Source: Marimonas lutisalis
Lineage (GTDB): Bacteria > Pseudomonadota > Alphaproteobacteria > Rhodobacterales > Rhodobacteraceae
Direction of reading: 5' to 3'
Assembly: GCF_005434965.1 (NCBI RefSeq)
Contig: NZ_SKCI01000002.1
Coordinates: 492,001-556,000 of the forward strand
Length of the DNA stretch: 64,000 nt
Notes under the pieces: model-generated
What the model was told of the DNA's origin: nothing
The model's input: the letters and a program-made list of their open reading frames with translations, nothing else
Databases searched by the model: none
Position numbers and translations under genes: made by a program
Shown here: positions 43,332 to 47,104 of the stretch, piece after piece
Numbering within the stretch: position 1 is the first letter of the stretch
Layout: each line of letters starts with the position of its first letter

Positions 43332-43395
43332 TCCTGCGTAGACTTTGTATGCGATCCGGGGCTATGACGGCCCCGGATTTTCTTTTGGATGAGCG

Positions 43396-44436
43396 ATGCC
43401 TGACGCGCCCGATACCCTGACATTCGTGCCCGAGACGGTGCTGAAGCGTGATGTATTTTCCGAAACCATCACCGGGCACCTGGCCGAGGACCCGGAGCGG
43501 AAGGTGGTGCTGCGCAAGCTGGACGGCGTGCCGTGGTGGGCGCGCCCCATCGCGATGTTCCTGGCGCGCAAGGAAATCCGCGGGTTGCGAGCGGTGCATG
43601 GGATCGAGGGCGTGCCCGAGCTTCTGAAAGTGGACAAGGTGGGGCTGCTGCGCAGCTGGTCCTATGGCACGCCCCTGCAGCTGGCCCGACCGGACAAGGC
43701 CGAGTGGTACCGCGATGCCAAGCGCCTGTTGCGCGAGATGCGCCGACGCGGGGTGACGCATAACGACATCGCCAAGCCGCAGAACTGGCTGAGCACGCCG
43801 GACGGGCGCGCGGCGGTCATCGATTTCCAGTTGGCCAGCGTGCATCGACGGCGCGGCCCGCTTTATCGCGTGATGGCGCGCGAGGATCTGCGCCACCTTT
43901 TGAAACAGAAGCGCAATTTCGCGCCGCATCTTCTGACGGCGTCGGAAAAGCGGGTGCTGGCGCGCAAGTCGCTGCCGACGCGGATCTGGATGGCGACGGG
44001 CAAGCGGGCCTATAATTTCGTCACAAGGCGGTTGATGAACTGGCAGGATGCCGAGGGCACCGAGGACCGGTTGGTGCGTGATGGCGCGGCGGTGCGCAAG
44101 GCGCTGAGCGCCGCCCCGGGGGTGCGGGATGTGGCGCTGTGCACTTATGCGCTGCCCTCGAAGGGCGTGGGGATTTACGCCTTTGCCGAGACCGATCTGG
44201 ACCAGGCGGCGCTGCGCGCGCTGGTGAGCGAGGACCAGGCGGAACTGGTGCAGGGGGTGGCGCATCTGCCCCGCCGCGCCGATGGCAGCCTGCGCGAAGA
44301 TGCGCTGCAACTGGTGGCGACGAACCGGCTTGATGAGCTGGAGATGATGATGCAAGCCGAACCCGACCTGGCCCCGCTGTTGCAGCCGATCATTGCCGGG
44401 CGGCAGAACCTGACCGACCGGATTTTGAAGGGTTGA
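43396..44436 (+). CDS. kinase-like protein fused to an ANL C-terminal-lid-like domain
   Basis: A 346-residue protein. Residues about 35-200 look like a RIO/small serine-threonine kinase: Lys-rich VVLRKLD, RGVTHNDIAKPQNWL (HND at 122-124, Asn130) and AAVIDFQLA (DFQ at 143-145 in place of DFG). Residues about 228-320 resemble the AMP_binding_C lid of acyl-CoA synthetases (APGVRDVALCTYALP, LDQAALRALVSED, VAHLPRRADGSLREDALQ), although no adenylating core is present. The order of domains and the altered HRD and DFG motifs make the activity uncertain. It is monocistronic. Confidence 0.75.
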   Translation: MPDAPDTLTFVPETVLKRDVFSETITGHLAEDPERKVVLRKLDGVPWWARPIAMFLARKEIRGLRAVHGIEGVPELLKVDKVGLLRSWSYGTPLQLARPDKAEWYRDAKRLLREMRRRGVTHNDIAKPQNWLSTPDGRAAVIDFQLASVHRRRGPLYRVMAREDLRHLLKQKRNFAPHLLTASEKRVLARKSLPTRIWMATGKRAYNFVTRRLMNWQDAEGTEDRLVRDGAAVRKALSAAPGVRDVALCTYALPSKGVGIYAFAETDLDQAALRALVSEDQAELVQGVAHLPRRADGSLREDALQLVATNRLDELEMMMQAEPDLAPLLQPIIAGRQNLTDRILKG

Positions 44437-46567: not shown

Positions 46568-47104
46568 ATGTCGCAATACATTCGCCCCCGGGTGCCCGGC
46601 GCATCGGTCTTTTTCACGGTCAACCTGCAGGCCCGCGGGTCGGCCCTGTTGCTCGATGAGATTTGCCACCTGCGCGAGGCGGTGCGCAGGACGCGGGCCG
46701 AGCGGCCGTTCCGCATAGACGCCTGGGTTGTGATGCCCGATCACATTCATGCGGTGTGGACCCTGCCCGAGGGGGACGCGGATTTCTCGACCCGGTGGGG
46801 CGCGATCAAGGCGCGGTTTACCATGAGTTTGCGTAAGGCGGGCTTCAGCCCGCCATCCGATCTGCCGGTGGTGCAATCCGGAAGGTATGCCGGGCTGAAG
46901 CCCGGCCTACGCGTGGCGAAACGCGAGTGCGGTATCTGGCAGCGGCGGTTCTGGGAGCATCACATCCGCGGGCCGGAGGATTTCGCCGCCTGCGTTCACT
47001 ATTGCCATATGAACCCGGTGAAACACGGGGTCGTCGCGCGGCCCGAGGATTGGCTTTATTCCTCGGTTCACCGGGAGATCCGATTGGGGCGCTTTGCGGC
47101 GTAG
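46568..47104 (+). CDS. REP-associated tyrosine transposase (RAYT)
   Basis: A 178-residue single-strand transposase of the Y1/IS200-like RAYT family, thought to mobilise REP palindromes. The HUH motif is in VVMPDHIHAVW, the catalytic Tyr region in CVHYCHMNPVKHG, and the family hallmark is GIWQRRFWEHHIR. Residues between KARFTMSLRK and AKRECGIWQRR are longer than usual because the DNA there carries an inverted pair of REP-like palindromes read through in frame. The TAG stop lies in a third such element. It is a single-copy domesticated element rather than an IS: no terminal repeats are seen. Confidence 0.9.
   Translation: MSQYIRPRVPGASVFFTVNLQARGSALLLDEICHLREAVRRTRAERPFRIDAWVVMPDHIHAVWTLPEGDADFSTRWGAIKARFTMSLRKAGFSPPSDLPVVQSGRYAGLKPGLRVAKRECGIWQRRFWEHHIRGPEDFAACVHYCHMNPVKHGVVARPEDWLYSSVHREIRLGRFAA
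46833..46910 (+). repeat. inverted pair of REP palindromes inside the RAYT coding sequence
   Basis: GTAAGGCGGGCTTCAGCCCG (first, 46833-46854 with final CC) and, on the other strand, GTAGGCCGGGCTTCAGCCCG (46889-46910 with final GC). The two are about 86% identical in opposite orientation with 34 bases between, the layout of a BIME. Both are in frame within the RAYT gene. Confidence 0.8.

Follow-up and report, generated by a model that had tools for sequence, protein, structure and literature searches.

The stretch of DNA analysed here, referred to as the window, comprises 64,000 nucleotides and carries on its plus strand an open reading frame at 43396-44436, which starts with the ATG at 43396, ends with the stop codon at 44434-44436 and encodes a product of 346 aa. 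This ORF joins a PKL domain to a C-terminal domain homologous to the lid of acetyl-CoA synthetase (Acs). The features of the locus are as follows:

43353-43379, plus strand: hairpin resembling an intrinsic terminator, in the gap that separates the aldehyde dehydrogenase gene from the kinase-lid gene; conserved at 17 of the 80 related loci
43396-44436, plus strand: kinase-lid fusion gene, 346 aa; ORF with homologues along its entire length and a whole-length NF006620 match of 456 bits
43417-44043, plus strand: PKL kinase domain, about residues 8-216, from fold matches to the CurKC kinase and Rio2 and the NF008910 match
43513-43515, plus strand: Arg40, at the beta-3 lysine position of canonical kinases, placed by alignment with distant relatives having Lys; invariant in 81 of 81
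43759-43785, plus strand: catalytic loop H122-N-D-I-A-K-P-Q-N130, with H122, N123, D124, K127 and N130 invariant
43822-43830, plus strand: DFQ motif, residues 143-145, with the metal-binding Asp143; invariant in 81 of 81
44065-44430, plus strand: Acs-derived lid and Acs-type tail, about residues 224-345, from hhalign, fold match and lid tree
44266-44301, plus strand: LPRRADGSLRED, residues 291-302, equivalent of Acs LPKTRSGKIMRR, with the catalytic Lys replaced by Ser298 in the alignment column
44401-44421, plus strand: conserved C-terminal tail R336-x-N-L-T-D-R342, with R336, N338, T340 and D341 invariant and its end of low confidence in the model

Homologues of the kinase-lid protein were found in at least 80 other genomes, with 63-82% identity over nearly the whole length, in Roseovarius, Nioella, Pseudooceanicola, Thalassovita and related Rhodobacteraceae. 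The NCBIfam model NF006620 (PRK09188, 'serine/threonine protein kinase') aligned residues 7-343 with its positions 17-360 of 365 (E 7.9e-137), and the score of 456.1 bits lies below the curated equivalog cut-off of 490 bits; the window protein is an NF006620 homologue with the same architecture along the whole length and, by NCBI's own rule, a non-member. Proteins of a second family reached scores of up to 625.9 bits with this model, the name of which is silent on the lid. The AlphaFold2 model of the window protein, built on a 63-sequence alignment, had a mean pLDDT of 86.6, with a value of 33 for residues 341-346. An Rfam search gave nothing credible inside the gene, and a plasmid search gave no match.

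The preliminary description of this DNA had proposed an HND/DFQ kinase-like domain, and the kinase assignment proved sound, both motifs (HND at residues 122-124 and DFQ at 143-145) lying where it had placed them and being invariant in 81 of 81 homologues. The model NF008910 (PRK12274, also 'serine/threonine protein kinase') matched residues 12-222 with an E-value of 1.2e-57, and the closest solved folds to the N-terminal part of the model were the kinase domain of the class III lanthipeptide synthetase CurKC and archaeal Rio2, both with Z 17.2. Similarly, a profile of nine diverse kinase domains compared with solved structures retrieved StkP (4.2e-7), Rio2 (3.6e-6) and CurKC (1.1e-5), and a PDB search with the single full-length sequence returned only kinases and one unrelated-looking ABC-transporter. 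NF008910 proteins have a homologous kinase domain, with the HND, DFQ and EDLRHLLK-KR motifs in common, whereas they are about 220 aa long, lack the lid and occur outside Alphaproteobacteria in the sample. Compared with RIO2 and CurKC, the window protein has an Arg at the beta-3 Lys position and one more residue in the catalytic loop, and neither the RIO winged helix nor the lanthionine cyclase domain was seen in it.

Among the canonical kinase features, the HxD Asp (D124), the loop Asn (N130) and the DFx Asp (D143) are all present and invariant. The canonical beta-3 ATP-binding Lys appears to be absent, the aligned column being occupied by the invariant Arg40, and the catalytic loop exceeds HRDxKxxN by one residue, as seen from a gap in the alignment with StkP. 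Since both peculiarities are also found in kinase-only relatives, they belong to the family. With Arg instead of Lys, the protein could be a pseudokinase; the N-terminal domain of about 210 residues is thus best described as a predicted ATP-binding protein-kinase-like enzyme, the phosphotransfer itself being putative given Arg40 and the longer loop.

The C-terminal region had been described as patterned like AMP_binding_C but devoid of the adenylation core, and both statements held: the motifs APGVRDVAL (240-248) and LPRRADGSLRED occur at the positions given, the N-terminus is a PKL kinase and no adenylation core is present. Pfam AMP-binding_C (PF13193, gathering cut-off of 24.5 bits) gave no match in the window protein, nor in its C-terminus searched alone, which indicates that a single-sequence search misses the lid; among its 63 close homologues nine were matched, weakly, and the cut-off was passed in two relatives, a second-family member (26.8 bits) and the protein of genome G087 (71.5 bits). 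Profile comparison was more informative. In most of 289 alphaproteobacterial genomes, positions 244-355 of NF006620 match a protein about 650 aa long; 222 of the genomes have some match to the model, and those of the long proteins whose sequence was read out contain the Acs motif LPKTRSGKIMRR. In hhalign comparisons with Acs lids, E-values of 7.6e-12 and 5e-23 were obtained for the fused lids of Rhodobacteraceae and of the second family plus G087, respectively. Moreover, when the profile of all fused lids was compared with the 20 AMP-binding_C places in the genome that holds the window, Acs ranked first (E 4.7e-13, the next at 7e-5), and the profile extended along Acs to residue 617/618 of the frame, Acs-type tail included. 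PDB profile matches to Acs had an E-value of 0.0064, and of 6.9e-26 for the G087 relative.

As the structure search with the full model yielded kinases, the lid was predicted and searched by itself. The isolated lid was modelled with a pLDDT of 88.7 and superposed on Acs lids with Z up to 12.8 (120 residues aligned, rmsd 3.1; Foldseek and VIA-align, with Acs lids in the top rows). In the lid tree, fused lids and Acs stood apart (99/85) from 17 other ANL lids encoded by the same genome, and the complete set of fused lids, G087 included, formed one clade (97/87) sister to the Acs lids, which points to a single old fusion event from Acs as the origin of the kinase-lid protein. Profile search and structure prediction, both proposed beforehand as checks, therefore agree that the C-terminal domain is an ANL lid, specifically Acs-derived, without an adenylation core; neither a match to another family nor the lack of an ANL fold emerged when these outcomes were looked for. 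The lid thus has in common with that of the AMP-forming acetyl-CoA synthetase (ANL superfamily, Pfam AMP-binding_C) the fold, the sequence ancestry and the C-terminal extension. An unrelated C-terminal domain with a chance likeness, or a fusion created by annotation or assembly, might be suspected from the subthreshold Pfam result in the window protein and the weak matches in its close homologues, but it is ruled out by an architecture repeated in 80 loci of one collection and in 119 second-family genomes, by the intermediate G087 lid with its 71.5 bits, by the lid fold and by the lid tree, and its probability is considered negligible.

The fusion was found in 27 of 394 sampled Rhodobacteraceae genera (about 7%), in 119 of 198 genomes (60%) of a second alphaproteobacterial family (f159, from its size and richness perhaps the Bradyrhizobium family) and, in a third family, in one genome, G087, which is one of four genomes of its order. 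The fusion is old, and the lid was retained across two large alphaproteobacterial families. Proteins with the kinase alone are found in two families of the phylum that lie outside the class, and are sister to G087 in the kinase tree (96/69), so that a loss of the lid in the kinase-only lineage is possible, if weakly supported. The least diverged fused lid is that of G087 (L150 / L084, G087:C235), in which Ala replaces the catalytic Lys. Two second-family loci, L209 (G1048:C295:37500-40000) and L210 (G1035:C31:21300-23300), encode a kinase followed by two lids in tandem.

In 75 of 80 related loci the kinase-lid gene is preceded, on its own strand, by an aldehyde dehydrogenase gene, and beyond the latter there is usually a peroxiredoxin gene on the opposite strand. 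A GT11-like glycosyltransferase gene, named by eye, is present in 33 of these 80 loci, mostly between the dehydrogenase and the kinase-lid gene; it is not beside the kinase-lid gene in the window. The second family has other neighbours, among them a TrmFO-like gene in two genera, and the G087 copy lies near lpxB-like and PAP2-like genes, these assignments having been made by eye. Because neighbours vary between families, the context gives no firm function. The hairpin ATCCGGGGC-TATGA-CGGCCCCGGAT ends 16 bases upstream of the kinase-lid ATG and may be a terminator of the dehydrogenase gene only or an attenuator of the kinase gene. The 17 loci, which belong to several genera, have an almost identical hairpin sequence, also in the loop, and some of them (L006-L008) show paired changes. 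In the genome this sequence has no other occurrence apart from one site with two mismatches.

ANL lids are generally regarded as mobile elements that depend on their core. Compared with the Acs lid, the fused one is attached to a kinase and has lost the adenylation core, the A8 hinge loop, the CoA-arginine stretch and the catalytic Lys. The alignment of fused lids with Acs begins downstream of the A8 hinge region, and the hhalign comparison placed a deletion in the Rhodobacteraceae fusions at the stretch aligned to VRKEIGPIA of Acs, which presumably holds the CoA-contacting Arg584 of the Salmonella enzyme (counted back from Lys609); R584 mutants appear among the PDB titles of the structure matches. 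In the column of the catalytic residue, Lys is present in 28 of 28 Acs and in only 1 of 63 Rhodobacteraceae fusions, the window protein having Ser298. These sequence comparisons characterise the fused lid of the window protein as dead as an enzyme part. The second family often keeps this residue, which was found in 9 of the 11 members first examined and in 22 of the 50 of a wider, non-random set (30 best-scoring proteins plus 20 chosen for spread), all 22 in the best-scoring part, a PxxxxGK motif resulting; a lysine-dependent role may therefore exist there. Moreover, the fused lids have conserved residues of their own, namely GxGLYAFVE, LPRxxxGxxR, N[RQ]xxD and the RxNLxDR tail. The lid is under purifying selection, weaker than that on the kinase (median dN/dS of 0.41 and 0.21, with dS near saturation), and its evolution at about twice the rate of the kinase would also fit a spacer.

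Taken as a whole, these observations are best explained by a kinase in which a dead Acs lid is reused as a non-catalytic docking or regulatory module, a reading that we hold to be somewhat better than an even bet. An old fusion would have added the C-terminal lid of Acs, Acs-type tail included, to a PKL kinase; the lid would no longer be able to serve adenylation or the transfer to CoA, and would act instead as a docking or regulatory module, most likely by recruiting a partner or substrate of the kinase or by locking the kinase in a given state. Such a role is favoured because catalysis was lost and yet the fold and the lid's own conserved residues were kept.

The preliminary description had suggested a use in ligand binding or in lipid or acyl sensing, which found no support, the A8 loop, the CoA-arginine stretch and the catalytic Lys being missing or unconserved; a role in protein docking would be at least as good a fit. 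Because these contacts are missing, direct sensing of CoA or acyl-AMP would be less likely in the window protein. In a wider form of this proposal, the lid would switch the kinase in response to acyl-CoA, AMP or the acetylation state, and the PxxxxGK motif of the second family could be acetylated by a Pat-type acetyltransferase, the kinase reading the acetyl-CoA state. The lysine kept in 22 of 50 second-family proteins is consistent with this, as is the solved complex of the Acs lid with Pat (4u5y). It has been reported that the isolated C-terminal domain of Salmonella Acs is acetylated by a Pat enzyme, and an acetylation-sensitive role might on that account be possible where PxxxxGK is kept; however, Pat requires several regions of the lid, the Lys alone not being enough (PMC4053389), and 62 of 63 Rhodobacteraceae proteins, that of the window among them, lack this residue, which is variable elsewhere. 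A sensor of this kind is considered unlikely. The same low standing is given to a lid that docks in trans on the core of the cell's Acs or of another acyl-CoA synthetase, or that competes with the lid of this enzyme, which would thereby become the target of the kinase. The descent of the fused lid from Acs itself and the full Acs gene in the window's genome would agree with such docking, but Acs is present in most genomes whether they have the fusion or not, which gives its co-occurrence little weight; the hinge region by which a lid is tethered to its core is gone, and the 20 AMP-binding_C places of the genome all lie outside the 64-kb window.

Slightly less probable again is an activity of the Kdo-kinase type, in which the protein would phosphorylate small molecules or saccharides and act on the cell envelope, the lid being only a structural or dimerisation part. 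A kinase-only relative matched the Kdo kinase model NF002475 over residues 100-166 (E 2.5e-6), and the glycosyltransferase-like gene of 33 loci and the lpxB-like and PAP2-like proteins near the G087 copy would suit an envelope function. Nevertheless, this relative scored 26.7 bits and the window protein 14.7, far below the cut-off of 142, a lanthionine-synthetase kinase scored about equally well, and the neighbours differ between families, with no glycosyltransferase beside the window gene. The reading preferred here thus remains that of a docking or regulatory module. A more far-reaching idea, in which a dead Acs lid recruited once by a kinase constitutes a new type of regulatory domain, the kinase reading or controlling acyl-CoA metabolism through a lid that mimics the moving part of the enzyme and that is acetylation-sensitive where the Lys is kept, is put forward as a speculation with perhaps one chance in five.

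The family is already recorded as a kinase in NCBIfam, and the lid is detectable by Pfam in some members; in the open-licence literature, to which the search was limited, no publication on the fusion or its use was found for this protein family. The relevance of these proteins lies in an ANL lid module that was long kept on a kinase, evolving separately, with a tandem duplication in addition. Should the lid direct the kinase, phosphorylation and acetyl-CoA metabolism would be connected in Alphaproteobacteria that are widespread in the sea and in soil, and the lid would be an example of a catalytic domain turned into an adaptor.

Two minor observations concern individual loci. At G297:C3:2383113-2384116 the kinase-lid gene is apparently split by a frameshift into frames of 321 aa and 118 aa, which would represent a pseudogene or a sequencing error. 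In the window itself, an ORF of 178 aa at 46568-47104 resembles, by eye, a REP-associated (IS200-like) transposase.
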